From positions 1 to 57,688 of the forward strand of contig NZ_KB905030.1 of assembly GCF_000377405.1 (NCBI RefSeq): a stretch of 57,688 bases of DNA. The letters are read 5' to 3'. Each line of letters begins with the position of its first letter. Position 1 is the stretch's first letter. The position numbers were made by a program, and so were the translations under genes. Shown piece by piece: positions 29,825 to 46,894 of this stretch. The notes beneath the pieces were generated by a model that made no database searches, was not told the DNA's origin, and saw only the letters and a list, made by a program, of their open reading frames with translations. This DNA is from Thioalkalivibrio sp. ALE31. GTDB taxonomy: Bacteria > Pseudomonadota > Gammaproteobacteria > Ectothiorhodospirales > Ectothiorhodospiraceae.

Positions 29825-30208
29825 CTACCAGTCGTACTGGCGGACGAATTCGGGCAACTTGTCGATCATCTCATCGCGCCCGAAGAAGCGATCGGCGCGG
29901 GCCAGGCGCATTTCATCCTGGATGTCCTGATCGCCACCAAAGCAGAATACCGGAAGGTTGATCTGGTATTCCATGCGCAGCATCCGGATCACGTCGAGCG
30001 GATCAAAGGCCTCGATCTCGTCCAGGTCCAGCAGCAGGAATCGGTACAGCAGGATCTCGTTCCAAGGCCCGAGCTCATCCAGGTCGGTGACCTGGTGCAA
30101 CTGCCACTCCGGCGGCAGCTGGGCCTGCAGGCGCTCGGCCATCGCGCCGTCCTGGGTCATCAGGATCAGGCGTTTCTCCAGGCGGCGTTCGATCGTCGGT
30201 TCGGACAT
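29825..30208 (-). CDS. Degenerate response-regulator receiver-like protein
   Basis: A 127-residue cytoplasmic protein whose length and strand pattern fit a single CheY-like domain: RLILMTQDGAMAERLQAQLP, then FLLLDLDEIEAFDPLDVIRML, then NLPVFCFGGDQDIQDEMRLARADRFFGRDEM. An Asp is present at the expected phosphorylation strand (LLLDLD), but the usual acidic pair and the conserved Lys are not (GRDE in place of x-KP). It may therefore not be phosphorylated normally. CGGAGAAG precedes the ATG. It is the last gene of the sulfur cluster strand, 47 bp after the ligase-like gene. The receiver assignment rests on pattern only. Confidence 0.6.
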   Translation of the reverse strand: MSEPTIERRLEKRLILMTQDGAMAERLQAQLPPEWQLHQVTDLDELGPWNEILLYRFLLLDLDEIEAFDPLDVIRMLRMEYQINLPVFCFGGDQDIQDEMRLARADRFFGRDEMIDKLPEFVRQYDW

Positions 30209-30255
30209 GCGGCTTCTCCGGCGTTCGTGGGGAGGGGGCTCGGGACCGGGGCCTG

Positions 30256-31299
30256 TCAGGCCGCTGCGATTCCGCGATAAAGCCCGTCGATGCGGGCACT
30301 GATCTCGTCCACCATGCGGGCATCAAGCTGGCCGTTCAGACGCGAGCGTACGCGCAGGCGTTCCGGCGATTCACCGACCAGACACTCCTCCAGGATGGCG
30401 GTGGTGGCCGCATCCTCGCACCAGATCCGCGCGATATGCGACCCCTCGACGTGCAGGCGCAGGCGCCCGCAGGCCCCGCGGGTCTCGAACACGTGATTGT
30501 CGCGGTTCACGCGGATGCCATCGCGCACCGACGGCGATCCCTGCCCGTCGGCGAGGTCCGTCAGCTCCTCGCGCCCCAGCGCCAGCCACTGCTCGAGGGT
30601 CGCCCGGTCCGGCTCGATCCGGCGTGCCGGAATGCCGAAACGGCGTTCCAGGACACCCTGGAGGGCCGCCTCGACCTGCGCGGGCGCGGGGACCTGCGGA
30701 CACTGGCGGGCGCAGTCGGTCATGCCCGTCTCCAGCGCCGGGCGCAACCAGTCACGGTAGCCCTCGCTGGGGGCATACACGCAGGCGAGGAAGCGCTCGA
30801 CCGGGAAATGTCGCAGGAAACTGGCGCCGAACACACAGCCCTCATCGAGCGTTGCGGCCCCGGTCCCCATGATCTTGCGCCCCTGGACCCAGACATCCTG
30901 GCCCCGGGCCTCCACACCCTCCAGACCGAGCGCGCGCAGCACATCCATGGCGATGCCCAGTCCCACGGCGAAGAGGTGGCGATGCCCACGGGCCAGCACC
31001 TGGCGCGGCTGGATCAGGAAGAAACAGGCCTGGTCGGCGTCCACCCAGACCGAGCCACCGCCCAGTGGACGCCGCACGACCGGCACACCCTGTTCGGCGC
31101 AGGCAGCCAGGTCCAGGTCGGATTCCGCGTCCTGGCTGGCCCCGATCGAGATATGCGGCTCGTGCGCGTGCACCCACAGGATACGCGGGGGCGCATCCGG
31201 AGCGGTGGAGGCCGCAAGACCGGTATACAGCGCGTGGAGTTCTTCGGCGGATCGGGCCCCGGCGTCGATCCACTCCGGGGTTACCGTGGATGCGACCAA
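30256..31299 (-). CDS. Second lipoate-protein ligase-like protein of the sHdr cluster
   Basis: A 347-residue protein of the BPL/LplA/LipB superfamily. The ligase motif is RRPLGGGSVWVDAD (76 onward) and the catalytic Lys is Lys142 in GQDVWVQGRKIMGTGAA, so adenylation and transfer chemistry look intact. A C-terminal domain resembling the LplA accessory domain follows (residues 230-345). It differs from the other ligase at 36995-38089 in the loop before GGG (PL for IT) and in several cysteines (Cys67, Cys92 and others). The TTG start at 31297-31299 follows GAGGG by 8 bases and lies 3 bases after the upstream stop. It may attach lipoate, octanoate or another acyl group to LbpA, LbpB or a different carrier. 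Confidence 0.8.
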   Translation of the reverse strand: MVASTVTPEWIDAGARSAEELHALYTGLAASTAPDAPPRILWVHAHEPHISIGASQDAESDLDLAACAEQGVPVVRRPLGGGSVWVDADQACFFLIQPRQVLARGHRHLFAVGLGIAMDVLRALGLEGVEARGQDVWVQGRKIMGTGAATLDEGCVFGASFLRHFPVERFLACVYAPSEGYRDWLRPALETGMTDCARQCPQVPAPAQVEAALQGVLERRFGIPARRIEPDRATLEQWLALGREELTDLADGQGSPSVRDGIRVNRDNHVFETRGACGRLRLHVEGSHIARIWCEDAATTAILEECLVGESPERLRVRSRLNGQLDARMVDEISARIDGLYRGIAAA

Positions 31300-31302
31300 G
31301 TG

Positions 31303-31731
31303 TCAGCCCTCGGGCTTGTCCTGTCCGGCACTGGAGTCGTCTGCCTTGTCCTCCTGGCCGGGCTGGTAGAAATAGCGGAAATAGAAGTCACTGCGGGAGA
31401 GATCCTCGTACAGCTTGGCGCGCTCCTCGACCCCGCTGCGCATGATCTCGACCATGGCCATCGCCTGCTCGCCATCGATGATGTGGATGCCGCCGGTCAG
31501 TTCCTGGTCGGTATCGAGGAAATGTGCGGCCAGCTCTTCCGGCTCCTGGATATATACCAGGAAGGACTTGCAGTCCGGGTCTTCCAGATCGAGCGGCTGC
31601 ATCACGATCTTGCCCAGCCAGGCCAGGCGCGCCACCTGGTTGAACTGGTGGATATCGAGCTTCTTGCCCTTCTTGTACTTGTTGAGTTCGTTGCGGATCT
31701 CGCCAATGTTGGCGATCTTCATCGATTTCAT
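31303..31731 (-). CDS. Uncharacterised 142-aa cytoplasmic protein in the sHdr cluster
   Basis: An acidic protein with a basic N-terminal helix (MKSMKIANIGEIRNELNKYK, then KGKKLDIHQFNQVARLAWLGK). The middle part is LDLEDPDCKSFLVYIQEPEE followed by LTGGIHIIDGEQAMAMVEIM. There is no signal peptide or metal motif, and only one Cys. The ATG at 31729-31731 was chosen because AGGA lies about 9 bases upstream; an ATG three codons later is possible. The stop is 3 bases from the start of the ligase-like gene, so the two are translationally linked. I do not recognise the family. Confidence 0.75.
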   Translation of the reverse strand: MKSMKIANIGEIRNELNKYKKGKKLDIHQFNQVARLAWLGKIVMQPLDLEDPDCKSFLVYIQEPEELAAHFLDTDQELTGGIHIIDGEQAMAMVEIMRSGVEERAKLYEDLSRSDFYFRYFYQPGQEDKADDSSAGQDKPEG

Positions 31732-31790
31732 GGATGTGCGTCCTGCCGCGAATGTTGCGGGAGCATAAAACAAGTGCATGTCCGGATCGT

Positions 31791-31815
31791 AAAAAAACCC
31801 CGGCGGACCGGGGTT
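31791..31815 (-). terminator. Intrinsic terminator after the periplasmic protein gene
   Basis: AACCCCGG (31796-31803) pairs with CCGGGGTT (31808-31815) around CGGA. On the minus strand it is followed by a run of T (31791-31797 are all A). It separates the FadL/periplasmic block from the small-protein/ligase block. Confidence 0.88.
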
Positions 31816-31885
31816 CTTGAGTGGGCTACGCGGGAATTCCGCGCACCCTTGCGCCGTTCCATGGCGCAGGCGGTCTCCAGCGGTC

Positions 31886-32839
31886 TTACCACTCGAAGCC
31901 GGTATCCTCTTCTTCGTAACCCGCGACTTCCTTCAGGGTCTCTTCCAGCGCACCGGGCGAGCTGCGCAGCCGCATGAAGCTGTTGTCACCCAGCATGCGC
32001 AGATCCGGGAAGTGCAGGGCCTTGCGGAAACGCATGTGCAGGGCCTCGACCTCGCCGCCGCGGACCAGGATCTCGATCGGCACCGTCGCGGTATGGCGGA
32101 ACTCGCCCACGTCCACGATGCCAAGCTGGTGCAGATCGGCCGAGTCCTGGGCCGCCCCGTCGGACTCGCGCACGGCCACACCGATCACGGTCACGTCCTG
32201 GCCCGGGATATCCACCCGGTAGATCTCGCTGACCCCCGCGACCCGGTTGCCCAGGTTGCTGTCCAGCTCGCTCAACGCACTCCTCCGGTTGCCATGGCTG
32301 GCCAGCTCGTAGGGCGCATCGAAGCGCTCCATGCCGAAGGTGTAGCGATAGCGATTCAGGTCGCGCTCGCTCATGCCGTCCTCGGACCCGAAGTCGCGCT
32401 CCGCTCCGAGGGTACTGGCCAGCCGGTCGCTGACGCCGGATACCGGCGCATCCAGACGGTAGGCATGACGGAAATACTCCAGGTTGTTGTAACTCACTTG
32501 CAGTTCGCCATCGACGGCCGTCACGGACACACGGATCGGGGCGATGTAGCCACCGCGTGCCTCGGAGCCGGCCACCGACAGCAGATCATCGTGGGTCACC
32601 ACGACCACATGCCGGTCGTCACTGACCGGATATTCGCCCAGGAACCGGAAGTCGGCCCCCTCCAGGCGTTCCCGCACACTGGCGGCCTCGGCGGAGACAT
32701 CCGTCCCCGATTCGGTGTAGGCCAGCACGAACGGACGGTAGTTGTCCGCCGCCACGGTCTGGCTCGCCGCGAACAGCGCAACCGCCGCGACCATGCCGAC
32801 GGCGCGGACACTCCCGCGCAAGGCGTGGATTGCTCGCAT
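31886..32839 (-). CDS. Periplasmic protein of unknown function in the sHdr cluster
   Basis: A 317-residue exported protein. The signal peptide is MRAIHALRGSVRAVGMVAAV to TVAA, with AAGGAGG 6 bases before the ATG. The mature part has a regular alpha/beta pattern (DVSAEAASVRERLEGADFRF, VVVVTHDDLLSVAGS, RGGYIAPIRVSVTAVDGELQ, NNLEYFRHAYR) and no cysteine or haem motif. I do not recognise the family. It directly follows the FadL-type porin gene with 204 bp between them and no clear terminator, so the two may form one transcript and act on the same compound across the outer membrane. Confidence 0.8.
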   Translation of the reverse strand: MRAIHALRGSVRAVGMVAAVALFAASQTVAADNYRPFVLAYTESGTDVSAEAASVRERLEGADFRFLGEYPVSDDRHVVVVTHDDLLSVAGSEARGGYIAPIRVSVTAVDGELQVSYNNLEYFRHAYRLDAPVSGVSDRLASTLGAERDFGSEDGMSERDLNRYRYTFGMERFDAPYELASHGNRRSALSELDSNLGNRVAGVSEIYRVDIPGQDVTVIGVAVRESDGAAQDSADLHQLGIVDVGEFRHTATVPIEILVRGGEVEALHMRFRKALHFPDLRMLGDNSFMRLRSSPGALEETLKEVAGYEEEDTGFEW

Positions 32840-33043
32840 GGCATCCTCCTTTGAATTCTCAGGTAAATCCGAGCGGAATGCTCGACAGAAAGAAGGGCCC
32901 GGGACGCACCCCCAGTGCGTCACGGACCTCGGCATCACCCGCCTGCCCTGGCGGACCCGGCCTTCCCCTCAAGACCGGTGCGCCCTCCCGGGCACACGAC
33001 ACCGAAGTCCGCGGCGGTCAGGCGACCGCCCCGGACCTCCCGA

Positions 33044-34378
33044 TCAGAACCGGTACGCGTACCCGATCTCGAGCTCGTACTGACGCATCTCGATCTTGAT
33101 ATCCTGACCGTCCAACGGGTTGGTACCACTCACACTCTTCCTTGGCGCGTACATCGCAGCGAAGTTGAGTTCGTGGTTGTCACCAAAGCCCTTGGTAAAG
33201 CCTGCCGTGAAATGATCTTCCATCACGGCCGGTGCGAGGATATTAATCAAAACATCATCCGAGCGAACCGGGTTCTGGCCACGGTTGTAGCCAACTCGCC
33301 ACGTCCAGTCATTGCCAGCTTCAAATTGGGCACCGATTTTAAAGACGTTGATGTCTCGCCATCCGAACCCGGGACCATTCTGCCCTCCAAGTCGAGCTTC
33401 CGGGTCTCCGGTTGCGGGATCGCCACCCATCATGCCAATGGCTTCGGGGCTATTGAAGAGGTTAGAGAAGGGGTTGGAAACTGCATCCACATCCGAGTAG
33501 TTGATTCGCTGATAGTCAGCAGCGATCGTGATGCTAGGCGTTACATCGAACGAGATGCCCGCACCCCAAGTCGACGGAATATCGAAACTTCCACCTTCCG
33601 CGAACAGACCACTGTAGTCGTCGAAATCACCGTTACGAATCTTGGATCGATAATTCGCACCCACCACTACGCCATCAGCCACTTCAGCCTGGAAGCCAAT
33701 CTGACCGCCGTAGCCCCAGGCCGAATCGGTACCGTTGTCGCTAAGGTTGCCCGGATCTGAACTAAAATCCCCAAACCCTTGGAGTCCCGTTGCCTTGAAT
33801 CGCGAATAGCTCACGATCGGGCTAACGCCGACACTGACCCGTCCGTCGGCAAATTTCTGTGCATACGTCGGGATAATGGCCAGCTGCTCGAGATTCACCC
33901 CTGCTGGCCCACCGCCAAACGTGCCGGTGGGCGCGCCCGGGCCATTATTGACATTAGGGTAATCCGTATTTAGCCCGCCATTGCCCAGTAGCGCTATACC
34001 CCAAGACCGCGTGTCATCGATTTGCTGAACATACCCCAGAGACGGAATGAAGAAATTCTTGCTCCCACTTTCCACCTCACCAGGTGCAAGCGGGAAAGGT
34101 CCCTGCCCTTGCGGCTGTCCAGCCGTGTAGGACCGCTCGGGGCGGAAGTAGGCGAGGGAGCCGTCGATGCGGGTTTCCATGCCGGCGATGCCGGCGGGGT
34201 TGATGCCCGGGGCATAGGCGTCCTGGGAGATCGCCATCCCGACGCCCCCCATGCCCTTGGCCTTGGTGCCGTAGCCGTGGGCGAAGTAGCCGTTGGTGGC
34301 GTGCGCGACGCCGGCGGAGCCCATGGCCAGGCCGACCGCGATCGTCACCAGGCTGCGGCGAATGATGCGTGCTTCCAT
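33044..34378 (-). CDS. FadL/OmpP1-type outer-membrane transport protein
   Basis: A 444-residue beta-barrel protein for hydrophobic compounds. The signal peptide ends at GVAHA; the mature protein begins TNGYFAHGYGTKAKGMGGVG, the typical FadL N-terminal hatch (NGY...G.G...GMGGAG). The PGINPAGIAG motif and the C-terminal strand with final Phe (ELEIGYAYRF) are both as expected. AAAGGAG precedes the ATG at 34376-34378. The internal part of the gene, about 33.1 to 34.13 kb, is clearly poorer in GC than its first 250 bases and than its neighbours. The placement inside a sulfur-oxidation cluster suggests uptake of a hydrophobic sulfur species or of fatty acids for lipoate; neither is shown. Confidence 0.92.
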   Translation of the reverse strand: MEARIIRRSLVTIAVGLAMGSAGVAHATNGYFAHGYGTKAKGMGGVGMAISQDAYAPGINPAGIAGMETRIDGSLAYFRPERSYTAGQPQGQGPFPLAPGEVESGSKNFFIPSLGYVQQIDDTRSWGIALLGNGGLNTDYPNVNNGPGAPTGTFGGGPAGVNLEQLAIIPTYAQKFADGRVSVGVSPIVSYSRFKATGLQGFGDFSSDPGNLSDNGTDSAWGYGGQIGFQAEVADGVVVGANYRSKIRNGDFDDYSGLFAEGGSFDIPSTWGAGISFDVTPSITIAADYQRINYSDVDAVSNPFSNLFNSPEAIGMMGGDPATGDPEARLGGQNGPGFGWRDINVFKIGAQFEAGNDWTWRVGYNRGQNPVRSDDVLINILAPAVMEDHFTAGFTKGFGDNHELNFAAMYAPRKSVSGTNPLDGQDIKIEMRQYELEIGYAYRF

Positions 34379-34640: not shown

Positions 34641-34662
34641 CTGGATACTACCACTATCGTTT

Positions 34663-35835
34663 TCAGGCTGTCTTCTCGTCTTCCGCCTCGTCGGCGTCGA
34701 AGTCGAAGGTGCCGACGTCTTCCCCGGCCATCTGCCGCTTGACGAACCCGACGTCGCTGCTGTTCAGCGCGAACGGGAACGACAGGATGTCCGTCGGGCT
34801 GGAATCGCCGTAAGGGCGATTGCAGGCCGAGACCTCTTCGTCCGACTTGCCGGGGCAGCCGGAGGTCTGGAACGGCTTGCCGGAGGCGATCAGTTCCTCG
34901 ACCTCGGACTGCGGCAGACCGAAGTCCACCACCTGGCCGTCGGCGTTGAACTTCATGTCGTCGATGCGGCCACCGGCGTAGTCGATGACGAAGCGGCCCA
35001 GCTGCACGCGGCGCCACTGGTCACGCGGGACCGGGTTCCAGTCTTCCATCAGCGAGCCCTCTTCCGGGAAGAAGGCAAACATGTGGTTATGACCGCCCAG
35101 GTCGCGGATGCGCTGGCAGACCTGCAGGATCTCTTCCTCGGTCTCGCCCATGCCGCAGATCAGGTGCGCGCCGAACTTCTCCGGGCCGAAGATCTCGGCG
35201 GCCCACTCGATGGACTGCCAGTACTTGTCCCAGGTATGCGGGCTCTCCACCGACTTGCCACGGGTGCGCTCGAAGATCTCCGGGGTCACCGCGTCCAGCG
35301 CGACGGTGAAGATGTCCGCGCCCTTGTCGCGCAGGAGCTGGAGGTCTTCATAGCTCATGGTGGTCGGGTTCGACAGGATCGACACCGGGATATGGTTGAC
35401 CTCGGCGACCCAGCGCTCCAGCAGCTCGACGGTGTCGGCATCGGAGTTCGGATGCGTGATCATGGAGATGCACATGCGCTCGAACTGACCGGCGTCGGCA
35501 TGATTCTTCACGCGCTCGATCACCTCGTCGTACTTGGCGGTCGGCCAGTCGACGCGGATGAAGTTGCGATCGGCGTAGTCCCGCGATTCCTCGCGGTGGC
35601 GGGCCAGGCCGCAGTAGGAGCAGTTGGCGCGGCAGCCTTCCGGATAGGTCACCAGGAGGTTCAGGCAGTGCGTGCAGGACGTGCGATGCATGGTGCCCGG
35701 CACCAGGCCCAGCGTGATCGCGGCCGCGGTGGACATCTGCACGTACTCCGGCGAACGCATGTCCGGGGTCTTGATGTGATAGTCGGGCCGGTAAAAGTTG
35801 ATCGGCGCGACCATCTCCTCTGCACTTGCACTCAT
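34663..35835 (-). CDS. Radical SAM lipoyl-synthase subunit (LipS1/LipS2 pair, member with CRANCSYC)
   Basis: A 390-residue radical SAM enzyme. The SAM cluster ligands are Cys68, Cys72 and Cys75 in GCRANCSYCGLA, and a further CxxC (Cys54, Cys57 in SCTHC) together with later cysteines probably binds the auxiliary, sulfur-donating cluster. The pattern resembles the biotin-synthase-related family that includes one subunit of the two-part lipoyl synthase LipS1/LipS2 described in archaea and in sHdr clusters. I cannot decide from memory which of the two numbers it carries. It is the last gene of the radical SAM-ligase-flavoprotein-radical SAM block, 54 bp after the flavoprotein gene. Confidence 0.85.
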   Translation of the reverse strand: MSASAEEMVAPINFYRPDYHIKTPDMRSPEYVQMSTAAAITLGLVPGTMHRTSCTHCLNLLVTYPEGCRANCSYCGLARHREESRDYADRNFIRVDWPTAKYDEVIERVKNHADAGQFERMCISMITHPNSDADTVELLERWVAEVNHIPVSILSNPTTMSYEDLQLLRDKGADIFTVALDAVTPEIFERTRGKSVESPHTWDKYWQSIEWAAEIFGPEKFGAHLICGMGETEEEILQVCQRIRDLGGHNHMFAFFPEEGSLMEDWNPVPRDQWRRVQLGRFVIDYAGGRIDDMKFNADGQVVDFGLPQSEVEELIASGKPFQTSGCPGKSDEEVSACNRPYGDSSPTDILSFPFALNSSDVGFVKRQMAGEDVGTFDFDADEAEDEKTA

Positions 35836-35889
35836 GGGGTTCCTCCAGCGTTGTCTCGGGGATGCCAGGCATCCGTCGACCGGGTCCGA

Positions 35890-36972
35890 TTACGCGGCCC
35901 GGTCACCATCGTTGAAATACTCGGAAAATGCAATCCATCCGCGGCGCTGGGTGGCGTCTTCCTGCGCCCGCGGGGTTCGCCAGTGTTCGTTGAGGAAGGC
36001 ACGCCGTTCGCAGGCCCGCTCCAGCGCCGGCCCGTACTGGTCGCGCATCTCCTCGTCGTAGTCGGCAAAGGCCTCGGCATCGCCTTCCAGGTGGCCGATC
36101 GCGGCCTCGCCGGCGGCCTCGCCCGACACCACGGCGGCGGCGATGCCGGCGCCGGTGATGGGGTGGGTCAGCCCGGCGGCATCGCCGACGAACAGGACAT
36201 CCCCCGCCACCAGCGACTCCCGCAGGCCGCCGACCGGGATCGCCCCGCCGGTGCGATAGCGGATCTCTTCGCCCAGCAGGCCCTGCTCCACAAGCTGGGC
36301 GTGCAGGGACTCCAGCGGGGCCTTAAGGTCACCGGCGATCCGCTTGTCGGCGCCCAGACCAAGGTTGGCCCATTCCCCCTTGGGGAACAGCCACGCGTAG
36401 CCACCCGGATAATCGTCGGAGAGCCAGACATCGGTTGCGGTATAGGCCTTTTTCAGCGGCACGGTGTACTGGCGCGTCTGCACCGTGGGCAGAGACTCCA
36501 GGCCGAGCGATTCGGCGACCGGAGAATGCGGACCGTCGGCGGCAATCAGTACGCGATAGCCGACCTCCTGCTCCGCGCCCTGATGTTTCACCCGGGCGAC
36601 GTGACGCTCGGCATCCACCGCCATCAGCGGCGTGGAGGTGACCAGCTGCGCCCCATTCGCCTCGGCCGCTCGGATGATGGCGCGGTCGAACTCGCCGCGA
36701 TCCACCATCAGGCCGGGGAAGTCGGAATGCTCGACGGTGCCGGAGGGCAGGAAGCTCTGCATGGAATCGATGCGCTGCAGCAGAACGCCCTCGGGCTTTG
36801 CATAAGCGCCCATCGGGTTGGGGATAAACTCGGCGCACTGCACCGGCTCGCCAAACGCCTTGTTGCGCTCGACCGCCAGCACCGACAGCCCCGCCGCGGC
36901 ACATACGCGCGCGGCGGAGGCCCCGCCGGGCCCCAGCCCCACCACCAGGACATCGACCCTGGACGGCAGCAT
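35890..36972 (-). CDS. Geranylgeranyl-reductase-like FAD oxidoreductase of the lipoate block
   Basis: A 360-residue flavoprotein. The FAD-binding Rossmann motif is VDVLVVGLGPGGASAARVCAAAGLSV with the following acidic residue in AVERN; the second FAD motif is GDVLFVGDAAGLTHPITGAGI. It belongs to the GGR family but stands between lipoate-ligase and lipoyl-synthase genes, where such a protein is a recurring partner in sHdr clusters; I recall the name LipT for it. A likely role is electron supply to the radical SAM pair or reduction of the lipoyl/octanoyl group; this is inference. Confidence 0.85.
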   Translation of the reverse strand: MLPSRVDVLVVGLGPGGASAARVCAAAGLSVLAVERNKAFGEPVQCAEFIPNPMGAYAKPEGVLLQRIDSMQSFLPSGTVEHSDFPGLMVDRGEFDRAIIRAAEANGAQLVTSTPLMAVDAERHVARVKHQGAEQEVGYRVLIAADGPHSPVAESLGLESLPTVQTRQYTVPLKKAYTATDVWLSDDYPGGYAWLFPKGEWANLGLGADKRIAGDLKAPLESLHAQLVEQGLLGEEIRYRTGGAIPVGGLRESLVAGDVLFVGDAAGLTHPITGAGIAAAVVSGEAAGEAAIGHLEGDAEAFADYDEEMRDQYGPALERACERRAFLNEHWRTPRAQEDATQRRGWIAFSEYFNDGDRAA

Positions 36973-36994
36973 CAGCGAAGGCTCCCGGCGCGGC

Positions 36995-39369: not shown

Positions 39370-39807
39370 TCAGCAGCCGCCGAAACCGTCCGCTTCCATC
39401 TTGGCTTCGAAGGCCGCCAGGGCATCGGAGCCGGTCTTCAGATCGCCGACTTCGCCGTCCCAGTCTTCCGGCTTCAGCTTGATCAGCCAGCCTTCGCCGT
39501 AGGGGTCTTCGTTGATCAGCCCCGGATTGGCAGCAACCTTGTCATTGGTCTCGGTGACTTCACCGGTGACCGGGGTCTTCGCCGGACCCACCCACTTGCC
39601 GGATTCGACGGTGGTGCAGGACTTGTCCTTCTTGACCGTCTTGCCAACCTTCTTCGGGGTGTAGGACACGATCGTGCCCGCCAGCGAACAGGCGTAGGAA
39701 GTCAGGCCGACCGTCGCGGTACCGTCGCTTTCCTTGCGCACCCAAACGTTGTTTTCAACGTTGTACATCAGATCTTCCGGAATATCACAACCCCGAACTG
39801 CACCCAT
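39370..39807 (-). CDS. lbpA: Lipoate-binding protein LbpA (GcvH-like)
   Basis: A 145-residue GcvH-fold protein. The lipoyl site is Lys71 in CTTVESGKWVGPAKTPVTGE, the standard ESxK motif of H proteins. It differs from glycine-cleavage GcvH by its N-terminus (MGAVRGCDIPEDLMYNVENN) and C-terminal GFGGC tail. In sHdr systems LbpA carries a lipoate-bound sulfur intermediate during oxidation to sulfite. TGGAGGAAG precedes the ATG. It is third of lbpB-dsrE-lbpA and followed by a strong terminator. Confidence 0.95.
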   Translation of the reverse strand: MGAVRGCDIPEDLMYNVENNVWVRKESDGTATVGLTSYACSLAGTIVSYTPKKVGKTVKKDKSCTTVESGKWVGPAKTPVTGEVTETNDKVAANPGLINEDPYGEGWLIKLKPEDWDGEVGDLKTGSDALAAFEAKMEADGFGGC

Positions 39808-39843: not shown

Positions 39844-40251
39844 TTAAAACGTTATCGTTTTATCACTGCGTAGTATCAGGTCGGCTAGTTCGCTCGCCCG
39901 ATTCACTTCATCGACTTCGTCGATGAGATCCGAAGACGCGTCGATTCTATACCCCGGCAGCGCGGGCTGGCAAACGTGCAGCCGCACTCCGGCGCGCTTC
40001 GCGTCCTGAATAAAATCCTTGATCAATTTGCCGTCTTCCATGGCCCGGAGGTCGTCCGCGACCCCCTTCTCCATCAGGCGCACGCCTTCCATAGTGAAGA
40101 AGATATAGACATCCACGTCCATGGACGCCATCACGGAACCGAGATAGAACGGGGTGGCACAGCGCCCCGGCGTCGACGGGCCCGAGGTCATGATGATCAC
40201 GACCGTCTGCTCGTCGTTGTCCAGGTAGTAGTCGTCGTCGAGATTCGCCAT
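39844..40251 (-). CDS. DsrE-family sulfur-transfer protein
   Basis: A 135-residue protein of the DsrE/DsrF-like fold (QTVVIIMTSGPSTPGRCATPFYLGSVMASMDVDVYIFFTMEGV). Two cysteines are candidates for persulfide transfer: Cys31 (GRCATP) and Cys94 (LHVCQPALPG), the latter at the place of the active Cys in this family. It probably hands sulfane sulfur between TusA and the sHdr/Lbp proteins, as DsrE3-type proteins do; that assignment is by context. It starts 8 bases after lbpB. Confidence 0.88.
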   Translation of the reverse strand: MANLDDDYYLDNDEQTVVIIMTSGPSTPGRCATPFYLGSVMASMDVDVYIFFTMEGVRLMEKGVADDLRAMEDGKLIKDFIQDAKRAGVRLHVCQPALPGYRIDASSDLIDEVDEVNRASELADLILRSDKTITF

Positions 40252-40259
40252 GGTTTCGC

Positions 40260-40706
40260 TCACCGCAGCTTGCGCTGGCACTGGATGTCATCATCCTTGG
40301 CCCGCTTGCAATAGCCTTCCTCGGCCTTGTCCCCGGTCAGGAATTCCTCCAGCGCCGCCTCGACCCCGTTGGTCGGCTCGACCCGGGCGATCCAGGCATT
40401 GTACGGGTCCGAGTTCAGCAGCACCGGATTCTCCAGCACCTCGTCATTCCCCTCGACGATCTTGCAGTCGATGAAGTTCGGGATCGGGCCTGCCCACTTG
40501 CCACTCTCGATGGTCGCCACCGGCTTGCCCGGGGGGCGTCGCGTACCGGGGCGCCGGACGCGCACGTGGATGATCTTCCCCGCGATCGTCTGCGACAGGT
40601 CGGTCATCCCCACCGTCAGGGTGTCGTCGTCCTCGCGGCGCAGCCAGATCTGGAACTCGTCGTCGTAGAACAGTTCAGGGTGAAACTCGCAGCCGTTGCA
40701 ATCCAT
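40260..40706 (-). CDS. lbpB: Second lipoate-binding protein (LbpB)
   Basis: A 148-residue GcvH-like protein, clearly diverged from LbpA. The lipoyl site is Lys70 in PVATIESGKWAGPIPNFIDC. It has its own N-terminal CNGC (Cys3, Cys6), a basic insert before the site (VRVRRPGTRRPPGK), and a Cys-containing C-terminus (EEGYCKRAKDDDIQCQRKLR). The extra cysteines are not typical of GcvH. GAGG precedes the ATG at 40704-40706. It is first gene after a terminator that closes the hdr operon. Whether it replaces, partners or regulates LbpA is open. Confidence 0.88.
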   Translation of the reverse strand: MDCNGCEFHPELFYDDEFQIWLRREDDDTLTVGMTDLSQTIAGKIIHVRVRRPGTRRPPGKPVATIESGKWAGPIPNFIDCKIVEGNDEVLENPVLLNSDPYNAWIARVEPTNGVEAALEEFLTGDKAEEGYCKRAKDDDIQCQRKLR

Positions 40707-40746
40707 GTTTCGCCTCGTTCCCGGGACCGAGCGGACCCGTGCCTCC

Positions 40747-40772
40747 ACAAAAAACGGGCGCCAGGCGCCCGT
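40747..40772 (-). terminator. Intrinsic terminator after hdrB2
   Basis: ACGGGCG (40754-40760) pairs with CGCCCGT (40766-40772); on the minus strand TTTTTTG follows. It closes hdrC1-B1-A-hyp-C2-B2 and precedes lbpB. Confidence 0.85.
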
Positions 40773-40816: not shown

Positions 40817-41728
40817 TCAGATGACCCCCTTCTCCTTCAGCAGACCAATCGAGTCACTCACGTTTTCGTGAATGCCCAGCTTGCGCGGGGACAGGCCCAT
40901 GGCCAGACCCAGCAGCTGGGTGAAGTACAGCACCTTCACGTCGGTCTTGATCCCGAACTCGGTCTCGGCGCGCACCTGATGCATCTCCAGACCAGAGTGG
41001 CAGGTCGGGCACTCGGTCGCGATCACTTCCGCGCCGGAGTCCTCAGCTGACTGCAGCAGGTTCAGCACCAGCTGGGTCGAGGTGTCGGAATCCGACAGCG
41101 TATGCGCCCCGCCGCAGCAGGACGTCTTCAGCGGGTACTCGACGTTCACCGCGCCGGCGGCACCCAGCAGGTCGTCCATGAAGTGCGGCTGATAGCTGGA
41201 GTCGGAACCCGGGCCATTGTCCTTCTCGGGGAAGATCTGGCGCGGGCGGGTATACATGCAGCCGTAGTAGTTGGCGACTTTGATGCCGTTCAGGCTCTTG
41301 GTCATCTTCTGCTTGATCCCCTCGGGACCCAGCTCTTCCATCAGCCACTCGAGCAGGTGCAGCGTGCGCACGTCGCCGCTGTAGACCGGGTCGTCCGACT
41401 TGCGCGCCAGATCCTGGACGGTATTCATCGCGTCCTCGGAGGTGGCGGTCTCGTACTCGGCCTTCTTCAGGTTGTGGTAGCAGCCGTTGCACGGCGCCAT
41501 CACGGTGTCCATGCCCATCTGCTCGGAGGCGATCGCCATGTTCCGCGCGGACAGGTAGGTCTGCAGCATGGGATGGACGTTCTTCACCTCCATCGCACCA
41601 CAGCAGTTCCAGTCCCGCAGGTTCTCCATCTCGAGACCCAGCGCCTTGACCAGCACGCGGGTGGAGCGGTCGTACGGCCCACCGGAGCCCTCGAGCGCGC
41701 AACCCGGATAGTAAGCAACCTTAGCCAT
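40817..41728 (-). CDS. hdrB2: sHdr complex subunit HdrB2
   Basis: A 303-residue protein with two CCG domains, the HdrB type that binds non-cubane [4Fe-4S] clusters. First set: Cys10, Cys42-Cys43 (WNCCGAM), Cys80 and Cys83 (CNGCYHNL). Second set: Cys157, Cys204-Cys205 (SCCGGAH), Cys240 and Cys243 (CPTCHSGL). Both sets are complete. The ATG overlaps the hdrC2 stop by 8 bases. In sulfur oxidisers the sHdr complex takes sulfane sulfur in the cytoplasm and oxidises it towards sulfite, with electrons leaving through this module. Confidence 0.95.
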   Translation of the reverse strand: MAKVAYYPGCALEGSGGPYDRSTRVLVKALGLEMENLRDWNCCGAMEVKNVHPMLQTYLSARNMAIASEQMGMDTVMAPCNGCYHNLKKAEYETATSEDAMNTVQDLARKSDDPVYSGDVRTLHLLEWLMEELGPEGIKQKMTKSLNGIKVANYYGCMYTRPRQIFPEKDNGPGSDSSYQPHFMDDLLGAAGAVNVEYPLKTSCCGGAHTLSDSDTSTQLVLNLLQSAEDSGAEVIATECPTCHSGLEMHQVRAETEFGIKTDVKVLYFTQLLGLAMGLSPRKLGIHENVSDSIGLLKEKGVI

Positions 41729-42437
41729 GAGCGGCCTCCTTCTGTTCGCGCACGTAATTCTTCAGCACGTCCCCGGTCTTGCCCCAGGACTTCGTGCGCG
41801 GCGTATGAATCGTGTTGAAGCCCATCGCCATCAGATGCTTCACCGGCAGGTGCTTCATCATGCGGAAGATGAACACCTTCAGCCATTCCTGCACCAGCGG
41901 CTGGCCGGTCTTCTTGAAGAAGTTCTGCATGACCTTGCCGTCTTCGATGCGGCCGGTCTTGTAGATCTGGTCGGCGAACTCTTCGTCGAAGTGCGTGGAC
42001 GGGGCCTTCTCGGTGATCCCTTCCTCTTCCATCCAGTGCGCCAGGGCCTTCATGACCCCTTCCGGCTTCACGTCCTTCGGGCAGATGTTCGTGCACTTGT
42101 TGCACGAGACGCACTGCCAGATGATGTCCTTGTCCTTGACCAGCTCTTCCTTCATGCCCAGACGGGTCAGGTAGATCCAGTAGCGCGGATTGAACTGCAC
42201 GTTCTGCGCGTACATCGTGCAGGAGTTCGTGCACGACCCGCACTGCCAGCAGCGGTGGACGTTTTCGCCACCCGCGAAGCTCTGGATCTTCGATTCGAAA
42301 TCGTCGTCGTAATCGCGCACCGTGCGCGGGGCGATCATGGTGTTCCAGTGGCCGGACACATCCACCCCGTCGACCACCAGCTCATCGTGCTGCTGGAGGC
42401 GCTCGTCCTCGATCAGTGCCTTTTCATGTATTGCCAT
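41721..42437 (-). CDS. hdrC2: sHdr complex subunit HdrC2
   Basis: A 238-residue iron-sulfur protein. Two classic 4Fe-4S motifs are present: Cys63, 66, 69, 73 (CWQCGSCTNSC) and Cys109, 112, 115, 119 (CVSCNKCTNIC). The rest is helical. CGGAGAG precedes the ATG, and the end overlaps hdrB2. It shuttles electrons between HdrA and HdrB2. Confidence 0.95.
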   Translation of the reverse strand: MAIHEKALIEDERLQQHDELVVDGVDVSGHWNTMIAPRTVRDYDDDFESKIQSFAGGENVHRCWQCGSCTNSCTMYAQNVQFNPRYWIYLTRLGMKEELVKDKDIIWQCVSCNKCTNICPKDVKPEGVMKALAHWMEEEGITEKAPSTHFDEEFADQIYKTGRIEDGKVMQNFFKKTGQPLVQEWLKVFIFRMMKHLPVKHLMAMGFNTIHTPRTKSWGKTGDVLKNYVREQKEAAHG

Positions 42438-42486
42438 GACGTCTCTCCGAAAACCTGTGTAGCCAGGCTCAAGTTCGTTCCGTTAT

Positions 42487-43323
42487 TCAATGCAGCGACG
42501 CATCGGTTCCTTTCAGACGACCTTCCGGGGAGTCGATCCCCAGCATCTTGACAGCCAGTTCCAGCGGGTCCTGCTTGGTACCGAACTGGTTGTCGATCAT
42601 CCCCAGACTCATTGACAGCGACCGGGCATAGTCCGAATAGGCCTGCACCCAGACCAGGTCCGTCACGAACGGCAGGTCCCGATAGAAGCCTTCCTCGGCC
42701 AGCGCATCGAAAAACCAGCGCCGCGCCCCCTCGATCGCCCCGACCGAATCCCCGATGGGGATCGACCGGAGAGTGTCATTGCCGCGGATAAACTCCCGCA
42801 GCGCACCCGTCGTGGTCGACGTATCCCAGACCCAGCGACACGCCAGCGGCATGGCCTCGGGGTCCGCGAAGTGCAGGATCTCGGCACCGAAGTCCCAGAT
42901 CGCTCGCCGCAGCTTCTTGTCGTCGGCCGCCAGGTCCGCGAACCCGGCAAGGCGCTCGTTGACCTCGACATCCGGCCGGACCAGCGCCCGAACCCCGTCG
43001 ACCAGCGCACCCTGTCGTTCGGCCATCAACGAGCGCAGCTTGCGCCGGACCGAGAACACCAGACCGCCAAGGGTCCGGACATCCTCGGCATCGATCTCGT
43101 CGCCCTTGGCCACGATCGCGGCAAACACCTCGTGCTTCGACCGCAGGGCCTCGATGAAGGTCTCCAGTCCGTCGACCCCGCCGGCCTCGGCGATGGCCTC
43201 GTTCAGACTGTTCAGCTTCGTCGAAAGGATCTCCTTGTCGAAGCTGACCTCCAGCGGCTCCGGGGAGAGCCCCGAAGCCGCCGCGTCGCTAACGACCTCA
43301 GCCGGCTTTCTGAACCAGCGCAT
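42487..43323 (-). CDS. sHdr-associated protein Hyp (between hdrA and hdrC2)
   Basis: A 278-residue protein that occupies the position always taken by the hyp/orf2 gene in sHdr clusters. It is helical and charged (LSTKLNSLNEAIAEAGGVDG, LGGLVFSVRRKLRSLMAERQ, WVWDTSTTTGALREFI) with few cysteines, so no metal cluster is expected. The ATG at 43321-43323 lies within the end of hdrA (26-base overlap) with GGA upstream. A structural or assembly role in the complex is likely; no activity is known to me. Confidence 0.85.
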   Translation of the reverse strand: MRWFRKPAEVVSDAAASGLSPEPLEVSFDKEILSTKLNSLNEAIAEAGGVDGLETFIEALRSKHEVFAAIVAKGDEIDAEDVRTLGGLVFSVRRKLRSLMAERQGALVDGVRALVRPDVEVNERLAGFADLAADDKKLRRAIWDFGAEILHFADPEAMPLACRWVWDTSTTTGALREFIRGNDTLRSIPIGDSVGAIEGARRWFFDALAEEGFYRDLPFVTDLVWVQAYSDYARSLSMSLGMIDNQFGTKQDPLELAVKMLGIDSPEGRLKGTDASLH

Positions 43324-44350
43324 GCAGATCCGCAACCGCGCGACCACCAGCGGCGGCACCCTGGGCGATCGAGTCATCGATCGTCTCGGGACCGTAGGCC
43401 GCACCGCAGGAATAGACGCCCTTGCGGGTGGTGCCACAGGTGTTGGTGTACTGCTCGGCGCGCTCCAGGAAGCCGTGCTTCTCGAGCCCGACACCGAAGA
43501 CCTGCGAGATCTCGGGATTGTCGGCGTTCGGGTCCATGCCGATCGCGTGCACCACGATGTCGAACGGGATGACGATAGGACGCTTGACCAGGGTGTCTTC
43601 GCCCTTGACCAGCAGGCGGCCATCACCAGAGGCCGTCACTTCGGCGATACGCGCCTTGACGAACTTGGTTTTGAACTCTTCCTGGGACTTCCAGTAGAAC
43701 TTGTCTTCGTACAGGCCGAAGGTCCGGATGTCCATGTAGTAGATGAACACGTCGGTTTCCGGCGAGATCTCCTTGATCTCCATCGCCAGGTTGGCGGACA
43801 CGGTGCAGCAGATCTTGGAGCACCACTCGCGGCCGATCTGGCGGTCACGGGAACCCACGCACAGCAGGATGCAGACCCGCTCGGGCACACGGCCGTCGGA
43901 CGGGCAGGCGATCTTGCCGCTGGCGACCATCTGCTCCATCTGGGTGGTGGTCAGGACGTCTTCGTACGTCCCGAAACCCCACTCCGGCTTGTTGATGGAG
44001 TCGAAATGGGTAAAGCCGGTGGCGAGCACCACGGCGCCGGCCTGGACCGATTCGCCATTGGTCAGGGTCGCGGTGAAGTTGCCGGCTTCGCCGTCCAGCT
44101 TCTCGACCTTGGCACCCTTGTGCACGGTGGCGTTCGAGTCATCCTCGACACGCTTGACCATGCGGCCGATGGCGTCCTTCGCCCACTCGCCGGAGGGCAC
44201 CAGCTTGGCGTAGCCCGAGAGGATCGGGGCGCCCCCCAGGACGTCTTCCTTCTCGACCATCACGGCCTTGAAGCCAGCCGAGGTGACATTCGCGGCGGCG
44301 GCCAGACCGGCCGGGCCACCACCCACTACTAGAACGGTATCTTGCTGCAT
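43298..44350 (-). CDS. hdrA: sHdr complex subunit HdrA (FAD protein)
   Basis: A 350-residue flavoprotein, the short form typical of sulfur oxidisers. The FAD site is VLVVGGGPAGLAAAANVTSA, and the second dinucleotide region is AGAVVLATGF. The conserved cysteines Cys149, 160, 164, 177, 181 and 182 (RVCILLCVGSRD, WCSKICC) bind the unusual [4Fe-4S] cluster. The start ATG overlaps the hdrB1 stop (TGATG). The reaction direction in sulfur oxidisers is the reverse of methanogen heterodisulfide reduction. Confidence 0.96.
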   Translation of the reverse strand: MQQDTVLVVGGGPAGLAAAANVTSAGFKAVMVEKEDVLGGAPILSGYAKLVPSGEWAKDAIGRMVKRVEDDSNATVHKGAKVEKLDGEAGNFTATLTNGESVQAGAVVLATGFTHFDSINKPEWGFGTYEDVLTTTQMEQMVASGKIACPSDGRVPERVCILLCVGSRDRQIGREWCSKICCTVSANLAMEIKEISPETDVFIYYMDIRTFGLYEDKFYWKSQEEFKTKFVKARIAEVTASGDGRLLVKGEDTLVKRPIVIPFDIVVHAIGMDPNADNPEISQVFGVGLEKHGFLERAEQYTNTCGTTRKGVYSCGAAYGPETIDDSIAQGAAAGGRAVADLHALVQKAG

Positions 44351-45756
44351 CAGACCTTGCCCCCGTAAGCGAGTTCAGGATTGTAGAGGTATTCGATATT
44401 GCCGGCCTCGACCTCCTTCAGGTACTCCTGGAAGGTCTTCTTGGCCTCGGACCAGGACATGCCCATCTTCTCGACCAGGTCCTCGCAGGGCGACGCATGC
44501 CACTGCAGCTGGACGATCTTGAACGGATCCGCACCGCAGGCCAGGGCCGCGAACTGGACTTCCGCCATGATCGGGATCTGGAAGTTCTGGTTGTGGGCCT
44601 TACCGATCCACTGGTTCTTGTCCATGGTGGTGACGCAGCCGGTGTCGTTGGCCAGCATCACGTCGGCGTTGGCTTCCTCGCGGGCCACGCGGATCTTGCG
44701 ATCCATCGTGAACGAGCGGGTGAACTCGCGCTCGGAGATGATGTGGCGGAAGCCGAAGCCGCAGCAGTCGTACCAGGTCGAGTAGTCGATCACCTGCGCA
44801 CCCAGGGCCTGGGCGGTGGAGGTGATGATCGCGGTACGGTTGCCACCCAGCACGGACGGATCGTACACCGCGTCCTCGTGCACCATCTTGTAGTAATGGC
44901 AGGCCACGTGGGCGGTCGTGCGGATATTGGAGACGTCGATGGTCTGCAGCTCGGAGGCAATGCGGTTGCGCATCACGTGCACCCACTCGGAGTAGTGGAT
45001 GATCTCTTCCGGGATGACCAGCTTGCCGTCGACCAGGCGCCCCAGCTTGCCAAGGATCTTGGTGACCTTTTCGCGCAGCTCGGCGGACTCCACCAGATAC
45101 TTGCGGATCTCCTTGTAGTTACCAAAGGAGGTGCCGCAATGGACCAGCGGGTAGAAGTGACCCAGCTCATGGCCGTGCTGCTTGCCGGAGACGTAGGCCT
45201 GGTGGAAGTTGCGCAGGAACACCGCCGCCAGCGACTCGACGTTCCCGATACCGGAACCGTGGTAGTTCCACGCGGTGCAGGAGGTCTGGTCGGTCTCGTC
45301 GAGGTAGTCCTTGCCCGGCTCGAAGCCGAACTTGTTCATGAACCACAGCAGCGAGGTCGGGTAGCCCGGGATGTTGCCGCACTGGCCGCAGGACTTGTGG
45401 TGCCACAGCTGCTTGGTCGGGACCTTCTTCTCCCAGCCGAACAGGGTGTTCACCGACATCGGCTCGTGCTGATCCTCGATGCGATGGATGATGATCTGGC
45501 CGTCCTTCTCGAGCTCGTACATATGCTCGCGGACGTCATCCATGCGATCACCAAGATCGATGGTGCGGCGGTCGACGTGCTTGCGCACCCAGTCGGTGGC
45601 CTTGACCGCGTCTTCCTTCGACAGATCGGTCGACTGGAAGAACGAACCGTGACCGGCGATGCCCTGGCCGTCGGTGTTGTGGTAGCCCGGCTTCATGGTG
45701 CCGGCGCCAGCGCCTTCACCATTCTGGTTGTGATTGCCTGGGGTCTGTTCACTCAT
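44350..45756 (-). CDS. hdrB1: sHdr complex subunit HdrB1
   Basis: A 468-residue protein. An N-terminal extension of about 115 residues precedes the HdrB-like part. Cysteines in the order Cys123, Cys126 (KSCGQCG), Cys160, Cys286, Cys331-Cys332 (YDCCGFGF), Cys374, Cys407 and Cys424 fit cluster binding, but only one full CCG box is present, as is usual for HdrB1 of sHdr. AGGAG precedes the ATG. It is second in hdrC1-B1-A. Confidence 0.95.
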   Translation of the reverse strand: MSEQTPGNHNQNGEGAGAGTMKPGYHNTDGQGIAGHGSFFQSTDLSKEDAVKATDWVRKHVDRRTIDLGDRMDDVREHMYELEKDGQIIIHRIEDQHEPMSVNTLFGWEKKVPTKQLWHHKSCGQCGNIPGYPTSLLWFMNKFGFEPGKDYLDETDQTSCTAWNYHGSGIGNVESLAAVFLRNFHQAYVSGKQHGHELGHFYPLVHCGTSFGNYKEIRKYLVESAELREKVTKILGKLGRLVDGKLVIPEEIIHYSEWVHVMRNRIASELQTIDVSNIRTTAHVACHYYKMVHEDAVYDPSVLGGNRTAIITSTAQALGAQVIDYSTWYDCCGFGFRHIISEREFTRSFTMDRKIRVAREEANADVMLANDTGCVTTMDKNQWIGKAHNQNFQIPIMAEVQFAALACGADPFKIVQLQWHASPCEDLVEKMGMSWSEAKKTFQEYLKEVEAGNIEYLYNPELAYGGKV

Positions 45757-45799
45757 AACGCTTCTCCTGATGTCTTGGATGCGGGATTCGGCGAGCGAC

Positions 45800-46492
45800 T
45801 TATTCGTCGTCTTCCTCTTCCTGCTCCTCGAGCCAGTCTTCGTAGTCCTCGCGCTTCTCGTCGATGAAGTCTTCGATCACGTCGAAGAGGTTCTCGTCCA
45901 TCAGTTCGAGGGACTTCAGGACCCCGGTCATTTCCCAGATGGTGTACATCTCGACCGAGGTCTTCAGGGACACTTCCCAGGCGGTCTCGACCGTCTGCAG
46001 CGTCTTCACCGGAATCGCCTTGCGCAGGATGCGCAGATCGCCTTCCACCTTCTGGATGTTGGGGCCCCAGTCAGGGAAGTGATCGGGCTGGATCATATCG
46101 GGGGACAGCTGGTTACCCGTGGTGATCAGCTTGAGCATGACGCGGCCGAACGGACGGAGTACGTCCTTCGCGGACTGCATCTCGTGCTTGATGGCCACTT
46201 CGCGCATGATCGCGACCAGGCCACCGGGAGAGTTCTTGAACGGGCAGCGCGCCGCACAGGTCATGCACTGGGCGCAGGCCCAGATCTTCTCCTGCATCGC
46301 GTCGTAGATCTGCTCGACGTTCTCGGTCCAGAGCAGCTGGACGATCTCGCGTGGCGAGTAATCGTAGAACTGAGCGGACGGGCACGTGGCCGTGCAGATC
46401 CCACAGTTCAGGCAGCCGTTGAGCTCGTGGTCGTAGCGAAAATCCCCGCGGATATCGTCGAAGATTTGCTGCATCTCAGCGTATGTCGCCAT
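45800..46492 (-). CDS. hdrC1: sHdr complex subunit HdrC1
   Basis: A 230-residue iron-sulfur protein with two 4Fe-4S motifs: Cys27, 30, 33, 37 (CLNCGICTATC) and Cys73, 76, 79, 83 (CAQCMTCAARC). The C-terminus is extremely acidic (EDYEDWLEEQEEEDDE). GAGG lies about 10 bases before the ATG. It is first of the six hdr genes, 171 bp after tusA with two hairpins between. Confidence 0.95.
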   Translation of the reverse strand: MATYAEMQQIFDDIRGDFRYDHELNGCLNCGICTATCPSAQFYDYSPREIVQLLWTENVEQIYDAMQEKIWACAQCMTCAARCPFKNSPGGLVAIMREVAIKHEMQSAKDVLRPFGRVMLKLITTGNQLSPDMIQPDHFPDWGPNIQKVEGDLRILRKAIPVKTLQTVETAWEVSLKTSVEMYTIWEMTGVLKSLELMDENLFDVIEDFIDEKREDYEDWLEEQEEEDDE

Positions 46493-46607
46493 ATCTCACA
46501 CCTCTTCGCTTTAGGCGATGCAGGTTTCTTTGTGAACCTTGCGCAGCCAGCCTAGACCTCGTCCAGGCACCAATCCAGTTACCGCATGGCAACCGTCGTT
46601 ATTCAGG

Positions 46608-46666
46608 ATTCGGGGCGGTCAACCCTTGCGGATTGCCGCCCCGAATCAAGCGTTTGAAACGCTTCA
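46608..46666 (-). terminator. Two consecutive hairpins between tusA and hdrC1
   Basis: Hairpin 1 begins at the tusA stop: AAGCGTTT, C, AAACGCTT (minus strand; about 46648-46664). Hairpin 2 is ATTCGGGGCGG (46608-46618) against CCGCCCCGAAT (46636-46646), an 11-bp perfect stem. No strong T run follows, so partial termination or mRNA end protection is more likely than full termination. The effect would be more tusA than hdr mRNA. Confidence 0.6.
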
Positions 46667-46894
46667 GGCCTTCTTTACGAGGAAGTAGAACTTGCCGCCT
46701 TCTTCCTTGTGTTCCATCAGCTCGTTGCCGGTCTGCTTGGCGAAGGCCTGGAAGTCCTTCACGGCGCCCGGATCGGTGGCGATGATATGCAGAACCTGGC
46801 CGGCGTCCATCGCGGCGAGCGCCTTCTTGGCGCGCAGAATGGGCAGCGGGCAGTTCAGGCCGGAAGCATCGAGTTCTTGGTCAAAGTTGGCCAT
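46664..46894 (-). CDS. tusA: Sulfur carrier protein TusA
   Basis: A 76-residue TusA/SirA/YedF protein that carries sulfane sulfur as a persulfide on Cys15 in LDASGLNCPLPILRAKKALA. The CPxP motif is intact and the length is standard. AAAGGAG precedes the ATG. It is the first gene of the sHdr strand, next to the best promoter found in the region. In sulfur oxidisers it feeds the cytoplasmic sHdr or Dsr pathways. Confidence 0.96.
   Translation of the reverse strand: MANFDQELDASGLNCPLPILRAKKALAAMDAGQVLHIIATDPGAVKDFQAFAKQTGNELMEHKEEGGKFYFLVKKA

Follow-up and report, generated by a model that had tools for sequence, protein, structure and literature searches.

A linked gene pair, p142 and Rec, in the tail of an sHdr-LbpA sulfur-oxidation island of Thioalkalivibrio

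Thioalkalivibrio sp. ALE31 (host genome G000, 2.77 Mb) carries a sulfur-oxidation island on contig NZ_KB905030.1, within the 57,688-nucleotide stretch analyzed here (the window). The island is a run of 19 genes, all on the minus strand, spanning 29825-46894, from the end of the Rec open reading frame (ORF) at 29825 to the start of tusA at 46894. A first-pass annotation had described such a single-strand run, with an sHdr/LbpA part (tusA-hdr-lbp-lip) and a tail encoding a FadL-type porin, a periplasmic protein, a 142-amino acid (aa) protein, a ligase-like protein and a receiver-like protein. This layout is borne out: every named gene is present on that strand with those ends. All five tail genes exist, and their order is often conserved. 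The part from tusA to lipS2 was also read correctly; it is the published, already known type I sHdr-LbpA cluster for sulfur oxidation, together with the genes for lipoate assembly. What, then, does the tail have to do with the sHdr enzyme? We find that p142 and Rec, two tightly linked genes, track the presence of the gamma-type hdr core, whether or not they are linked to it. Our best explanation, to which we give about equal weight for and against, is that the tail of this type I sHdr-LbpA cluster is composite and that p142-Rec serves the gamma-type sHdr enzyme as an accessory subcomplex for assembly or regulation. The tail genes are as follows; the starts of fadL at 34378 and of p142 at 31731 are the probable ones.

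33044..34378, minus strand: tail gene 1, fadL, FadL-family outer-membrane protein (lipY of PMC10332631); Pfam Toluene_X 9.9e-19
31886..32842, minus strand: tail gene 2, peri, periplasmic, DUF302-like; signal peptide by eye, DUF302 in some family members
31303..31731, minus strand: tail gene 3, p142; no family or fold assigned
30256..31299, minus strand: tail gene 4, lig2, a further LplA-family ligase, motifs intact; Pfam LplA-B_cat 1.9e-23
29825..30208, minus strand: tail gene 5, Rec, pseudo-receiver by fold and residue comparison

Co-occurrence of p142 and Rec with HdrB1

Three genome samples were searched, with HdrB1 as the marker for sHdr: an order sample of 47 genomes (one family, five genera; 38 at least 90% complete, here near-complete), a class sample of 369 Gammaproteobacteria genomes drawn evenly, and a phylum sample of 304 genomes. 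The class searches used a p142 profile, a Rec profile and HdrB1 at E values up to 1e-30. In the class sample, p142 was found in 21 genomes from 12 families, Rec in the identical 21, and HdrB1 in 22, with an overlap of 20. The prospect that the tail genes might reside mainly in genomes without sHdr was examined for p142 and Rec and did not hold up, as HdrB1 is present in 20 of the 21 carriers. The order sample has HdrB1 in 40 genomes, p142 in 35, Rec in 36, peri in 34 and a FadL-type match in 36. Of its near-complete genomes, 35 have HdrB1, and Rec accompanies it in 31/35 and p142 in 29/35; the three without HdrB1 (G003, G014 and G045) have neither p142 (0/3; Fisher p 0.01) nor Rec (0/3). In the phylum sample, HdrB1 was found in five genomes and p142 in two (G000 and G412), both with HdrB1. 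A contig scan for p142 with strict patterns returned 33 loci, of which L061-L090 are true and belong to Thioalkalivibrio, Ectothiorhodospira, an Acidihalobacter metagenome-assembled genome (MAG) and one Gammaproteobacteria MAG, with the p142 of ALE14 at 97%. The other three (L091-L093, Bacteroidota) are 29-residue matches that we took as chance.

The pair lies beside hdr or lip genes in 12 of the 21 class carriers (G000, G020, G072, G135, G166, G201, G217, G236, G280, G324, G340 and G380). In six it is clearly apart from hdr, at 39 kb in G007, 205 kb in G065 and 757 kb in G401, and on other contigs, among other genes, in G196, G285 and G307; the remaining three (G172, G192 and G252) are broken by contig ends. 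A p142-lig2-rec run stands apart from hdr in G043 and G044 of the order sample as well. The pair persists with hdr-bearing genomes when unlinked, so the co-occurrence is not explained by linkage alone. Between p142 and Rec, 17 of the 21 class carriers have an LplA-family gene, lig2 (G380 with its run divided between two contigs); G007, G236, G252 and G340 have none at that place. Directly adjacent p142 and Rec are separated by -4 to 11 bp (9/9 loci measured).

Several observations weigh against p142 and Rec as parts of the sHdr enzyme. The Fisher test on the class overlap of HdrB1 with the pair (p ~9e-30) is uncorrected for kinship and has no control gene. G212 and G006 in the class sample have HdrB1 without the pair, and G380, at 75% completeness, carries the pair but yields no HdrB1 match; its genus mate G172 has all three. 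Among the 35 near-complete order carriers of HdrB1, p142 is missing from G002, G005, G006, G038, G041 and G046, and Rec from G005, G006, G038 and G046. G002 has Rec without p142, the missing p142 of G041 is apparently a contig-edge case, and G038, 96% complete, is in ~320 contigs. Of the nine less complete order genomes, G031 (58%) and G034 (79%) carry the pair without an HdrB1 match, G033 (80%) has HdrB1 only, and G011 and G042 have none of HdrB1, p142 and Rec. In the phylum sample, G414, G459 and G643 have an HdrB1 66-67% identical, in clusters with lip genes and one LbpA, and no p142. For G412, a genome from outside the class, the 19.5 kb read around p142 showed no Rec. Furthermore, the predicted model of p142 is of middling confidence (predicted local distance difference test 79.8, predicted template modelling score 0.64). 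Since some HdrB1 carriers have neither p142 nor Rec, not every sHdr system requires the pair. It may instead be a lineage-defining component, either an assembly factor or a regulatory subcomplex with a pseudo-receiver as its base, needed by the gamma-type enzyme and dispensed with by the distant type (HdrB1 ~66% identical), a proposal that we find plausible but lean slightly against.

We also built an HdrB1 tree. Its 40 rows come from 19 order carriers (of 40), 17 additional class carriers and 4 phylum carriers. The split copies of G135 were excluded, and the rows of G072 and G324 are probably lone extra copies. Four rows without the pair (G212, G414, G459 and G643) form a supported clade. The other 36, in one clade, comprise 31 with the module (G412 by p142 alone), two with Rec only (G002 and G041) and three without (G005, G006 and G046). 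Carrier state changes 4 times on the tree, compared to 8.4 in shuffles; in view of the long branches, against which the tree program warns, we take this as suggestive. The branches of the pair-lacking rows are long, 0.29 for G005 and G006 jointly and 0.47 for G046, compared to a median end branch of 0.044. These lengths are suggestive of change in HdrB1 after loss of the pair in G006 (L048), G005 (L049) and G046 (L050); a long-branch artefact is possible.

Extra hdrB1 copies with no other hdr gene nearby were seen at L156 988-2933 (G072), L160 3128-5514 (G217) and L155 17110-18501 (G065). A gene for an Rrf2-family regulator precedes the copy in G072 and G217, and a bacterial globin gene follows it in G217, a hint of a spare subunit controlled through iron-sulfur or nitric oxide.

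Genomes in which the tail genes part company

The genomes G014 and G045 are natural deletions. The hdr genes between tusA and lbpA2 are gone from both, with both flanks kept (L055 4500-5600 in G014 and L056 15108-16474 in G045). G014 has no HdrB1. The 20 kb that we read still holds tusA, what is left of a broken dsrE, and lbpA2, followed by peri and a lig2 that is intact; the other hdr genes and p142 and Rec, the usual flanks of lig2, were not found in these 20 kb. G045 has no HdrB1, p142 or Rec in a genome search and no lig2 in the stretch read. It keeps tusA, lbpA2, lipS1, sLpl(AB), lipT, lipS2, fadL and peri, all as near-full-length matches. Judged by hdr loss alone, both would fit the hdr-lacking, dsr-bearing strains ARh1 and ARhD1 (PMC6382920). 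Since the flanks were kept after hdr loss, LbpA2, in G045 with its maturation genes, seems to serve something other than sHdr in these two genomes.

A different separation is seen in g2, a group of ten order genomes. In G001, G004, G008, G009 and G010, Ectothiorhodospira by named contigs, p142-rec lies right behind lipS2, and no fadL, peri or lig2 is found there. Of the other g2 genomes, G007 carries its pair at a distance of 39 kb, only Rec is found in G002, and neither gene in G003, G005 or G006. HdrB1 is in 9/10 g2 genomes and peri in 0/10. Taken together, the patterns of G014, G045 and g2 indicate that p142 and Rec follow the hdr core, that FadL and peri do so less, and that lig2 is independent of it. 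The proposal that the tail forms one uncharacterised accessory module therefore stands in part. Its genes are real, but they are not one unit (p142 and Rec follow hdr, FadL and peri can persist without hdr, and lig2 is optional), and fadL is already in print as lipY.

In the class sample, fadL and peri both share a stretch with the pair in 12 of the 21 carriers; fadL is alone in G072, G217 and G324, and peri is alone in G252, at a contig end. In G201, peri is on the opposite strand, with a FadL-profile match just before it. G065 has fadL and peri beside hdr rather than with the pair, and G007, G236 and G340 have neither. Two FadL-family genes stand in tandem behind lipS2 at L037, L051 and L142, which suggests a duplication, possibly for two substrates.

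The tail proteins and what they may do

Rec has a receiver fold of 127 aa in a single domain, with no output domain. The phospho-acceptor Asp (D61) is kept in 24/24 aligned members. By a placement of sites inferred from secondary structure, the acidic pair is absent (T/S18 in 24/24), no Ser/Thr is found at 89-92, and Arg111 replaces the Lys in 22/24, so the canonical receiver active site (D, DD, T, K) is not present. Rec is thus a pseudo-receiver by the published definition, in which the fold is present and the residues are degenerate (PMC12632262). Like the bacterial pseudo-receivers described there, it has the fold with catalytic residues missing; it differs from them in having no Pfam receiver match, in its single domain and in its tie to a metabolic enzyme cluster. 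No Rec member matches the Pfam receiver family, and one matches His_biosynth weakly, at 0.0011. The fold matches include a mycobacterial complex I chain (8e9g_O, E 1.5e-4), a possible precedent for a receiver-like domain in a redox complex; a literature search on this chain found nothing useful. For p142, matches in Pfam and NCBIfam were far below cut-off (all Pfam matches of its members had E above 0.02), Foldseek and VIA structure matches were weak, and its profile weakly matched the Gloeobacter chains Glr2806 (E 0.0017) and Glr1262 (0.034).

The reading of p142-Rec as partners of sHdr is well supported by these patterns of gene content, from which we infer a mechanism. The two proteins would associate in a stoichiometric complex, which would bind the sHdr enzyme and assist in its assembly or gating, with the degenerate receiver Rec acting as a docking or regulatory surface, not a phospho-switch. 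FadL/LipY and the DUF302-like protein would carry a hydrophobic substrate across the envelope, either octanoate for lipoate assembly or zero-valent sulfur, and lig2 would be an optional acyl or lipoyl ligase. Octanoate is a candidate cargo because the sLpl(AB) of strain K90mix accepts only free octanoate or lipoate (PMC10332631).

The LplA catalytic domain of lig2 scores above the Pfam cut-off, and GGG plus a Lys motif (K-x-x-G-S/T-G) is found in 18/18 aligned sequences; we take the motif Lys to be the catalytic one. In its LplA-B_cat match and both motifs, lig2 resembles the Lpl(AB) ligases. Unlike them, it has RRPLGGG where they have RRITGGG, it is ~26% identical to the sLplA of the window over residues 9-226, and it has no LplB family match in NCBIfam, its C-terminal stretch of ~130 aa being without an assigned family. 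We regard it as a putative optional acyl or lipoyl ligase. It may already be in print, since TK90_0648, which would be lig2 by the inferred K90mix gene order, is indexed twice for PMC6067878. A third LplA-family gene, ~30% identical to lig2, was seen at 29016-29882 of G000 contig C1 (L058); the 20 kb read there hold no other island gene, and it adjoins a large ORF that looks by eye like an outer-membrane receptor. The window fadL matches Pfam PF03349 at 67.5 bits (cut-off 29.7), as do distant neighbours (5/5), and it is the lipY, or "putative fatty acid transporter," of PMC10332631. DUF302 (PF03625) matches the peri family weakly, in 4/17 members at E up to 0.1 (best 0.0012) and not in the window copy. 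A DUF302 protein whose role is not known occurs in sox clusters without soxCD (PMC5037610). Both it and peri are DUF302-type proteins in gene clusters of sulfur oxidizers, but it has 191 aa, whereas the weakly matched peri has ~318 aa and lies beside FadL and the sHdr cluster, not inside sox.

Could the whole tail instead be an accessory lipoate-assembly module, with octanoate import by LipY, a second ligase in lig2 and help for LbpA maturation from p142-Rec? The LplA-family gene between p142 and Rec in most class carriers, the name lipY and the narrow substrate range of sLpl(AB) speak for it, and the idea keeps some weight because in Escherichia coli with lipS1-slpl(AB)-lipT-lipS2 alone the second sulfur insertion is inefficient (PMC10332631). 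However, lbpA2 and the four lip genes are all retained in G045, where p142, Rec and lig2 are gone, which argues against p142-Rec being needed for lipoate assembly; G014 keeps lig2 without the pair; and G414, G459 and G643 combine lbpA, lip genes and their divergent HdrB1 with no p142. We consider this module unlikely. That the tail genes are mere neighbours, in a synteny conserved without functional coupling, is quite improbable in our view. Conservation does extend well past the tail, to CbbQ-like ATPase, VWA-like, deacetylase-like and aldo/keto reductase genes, so that an old shared order may hold genes together, but even an unlinked pair stays with hdr-bearing genomes, and it is absent from hdr-less genomes that have kept genes from between and beside its members.

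Instead of fatty acids, FadL and the DUF302-like protein could bring in polysulfide or zero-valent sulfur, to supply sHdr or some other sulfur pathway; we rate this as possible but on the doubtful side. Sulfur import for sHdr is an open question and SoxT is rare in type I genomes (PMC11582611), DUF302 proteins are also found in the sox clusters without soxCD, and fadL and peri are kept in G045 without hdr. On the other side, neither gene is beside sHdr in g2, where peri is absent though HdrB1 is nearly always present, and members of the FadL family transport many hydrophobic substrates. Rec as a response regulator that switches hdr transcription is a very improbable alternative. Its receiver fold and conserved Asp would fit, and in G043 what looks by eye like a two-component kinase-regulator pair adjoins p142 on the opposite strand, but Rec has no output domain and its active-site acidic pair, Ser/Thr and Lys are absent or replaced.

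The surrounding island and its published relatives

We assigned the 19 proteins to families with Pfam and NCBIfam profiles, which support TusA, two CCG proteins, two 4Fe-4S proteins, an HdrA flavoprotein, two GcvH-like LbpA and DsrE; Rec, the window copy of peri and hyp have no family match there. The 14 genes upstream of the tail are as follows.

46664..46894, minus strand: tusA, sulfur carrier; Pfam TusA 3.5e-25
45800..46492, minus strand: hdrC1; 4Fe-4S families, position beside hdrB1 conserved
44350..45756, minus strand: hdrB1, marker for sHdr presence; Pfam CCG, homologues in 40/47 order genomes
43298..44350, minus strand: hdrA flavoprotein; Pfam Pyr_redox_2
42487..43302, minus strand: hyp of the published hdrC1B1A-hyp-C2B2 operon; no family, operon order as in PMC6382920
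41721..42437, minus strand: hdrC2; 4Fe-4S families
40817..41728, minus strand: hdrB2; Pfam CCG 2.5e-27
40260..40748, minus strand: lbpA1, lipoate-binding protein (ESGKW); Pfam GCV_H, translation
39844..40281, minus strand: dsrE-type sulfurtransferase; Pfam DsrE
39370..39807, minus strand: lbpA2, lipoate-binding protein (ESGKW, C-terminal GGC); Pfam GCV_H 2.9e-38, translation
38082..39263, minus strand: lipS1; best match NCBIfam LipS1 1e-58, 199 bits, below the cut-off of 230
36995..38098, minus strand: sLpl(AB) lipoate:protein ligase; Pfam LplA-B_cat 2.4e-49, NCBIfam LplB stretch below cut-off
35890..36972, minus strand: lipT, geranylgeranyl-reductase-type flavoprotein; NCBIfam GG-red-SF 1.7e-57
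34663..35835, minus strand: lipS2; best match NCBIfam LipS2 8.9e-58, 196 bits, below the cut-off of 270

The first-pass count of six hdr-type genes needs correction: five are Hdr-like, and the sixth, hyp, has no match to any Hdr family in Pfam or NCBIfam. Type I sHdr is defined by shdrC1B1A-H-C2B2 in one syntenic cluster (PMC11582611), and the window has these six adjacent genes in that order at 40817-46492. The hdrB3 and etfAB genes that mark type II are absent, as hdrC2 and hdrB2 are separate genes and none of the 19 proteins matches Etf. LbpA is defined as a GcvH-like protein with a lipoyl Lys and N- and C-terminal Cys (PMC6067878); both window proteins match GCV_H and have ESGKW and Cys near both ends. 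In Thioalkalivibrio the published operon is hdrC1B1A-hyp-hdrC2B2-lbpA1-dsrE-lbpA2, and hdr occurs in 73/75 genomes (Berben et al., PMC6382920). The window has the same content and order as this cluster and the lip genes of K90mix (TK90_0641-0644, PMC10332631) through lipS1-sLpl(AB)-lipT-lipS2, then lipY. In contrast, p142, the DUF302-like protein, lig2 and Rec are in the window tail and are not discussed in the available parts of those accounts.

Intergenic gaps from tusA to lipS2 are -22 to 171 bp. In the tail they are 284 bp (lipS2/fadL), 201 (fadL/peri), 154 (peri/p142), 3 (p142/lig2) and 47 (lig2/rec), and given the three larger ones the tail may be transcribed from its own promoter or promoters. 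Pattern scans gave no excess of promoter-like sites (3, compared to 3.0 in shuffles) or terminator-like sites (12, compared to 10.1, standard deviation 3.1).

Clustering of neighbouring ORFs over 25 loci, with frames chosen by codon-position GC, shows that conserved neighbours extend past 29825 to ~19.96 kb.

26104-26418, plus strand: Ig-like 105-aa protein; homologues at 19/25 loci
25024-25884: CbbQ/NirQ/NorQ-type AAA+ ATPase; 13/25 loci
22472-25027: VWA-like protein, 851 aa; 13/25 loci
21258-22421: histone-deacetylase-like protein; 12/25 loci
19958-21109: aldo/keto reductase; 11/25 loci

Between Rec and this block lie genes for a betaine-type ABC transporter (by eye, 26798-29790). The first of them is behind Rec in close kin and absent at L025, L027, L028, L030, L031 and L035, loci of the same genus with the block present; the betaine-type genes therefore look inserted.

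A literature search, with most subscription journals and all supplements beyond its reach, did not find p142, peri or rec as sHdr partners. The island is known and fadL is named; within the literature searched, neither the p142-Rec pair nor its coupling to sHdr seems to have been described. p142 and Rec, two small proteins that track the enzyme in one large lineage, are direct candidates for missing parts of sHdr, bearing on how it turns lipoate-bound sulfur into sulfite, on its assembly and regulation and on sulfur delivery. They are few enough to add to a reconstitution or delete in a strain, and G014 and G045 are ready comparisons. If the proposed role is true, it would explain in advance why Hyphomicrobium models may not transfer to gammaproteobacterial sulfur oxidizers.

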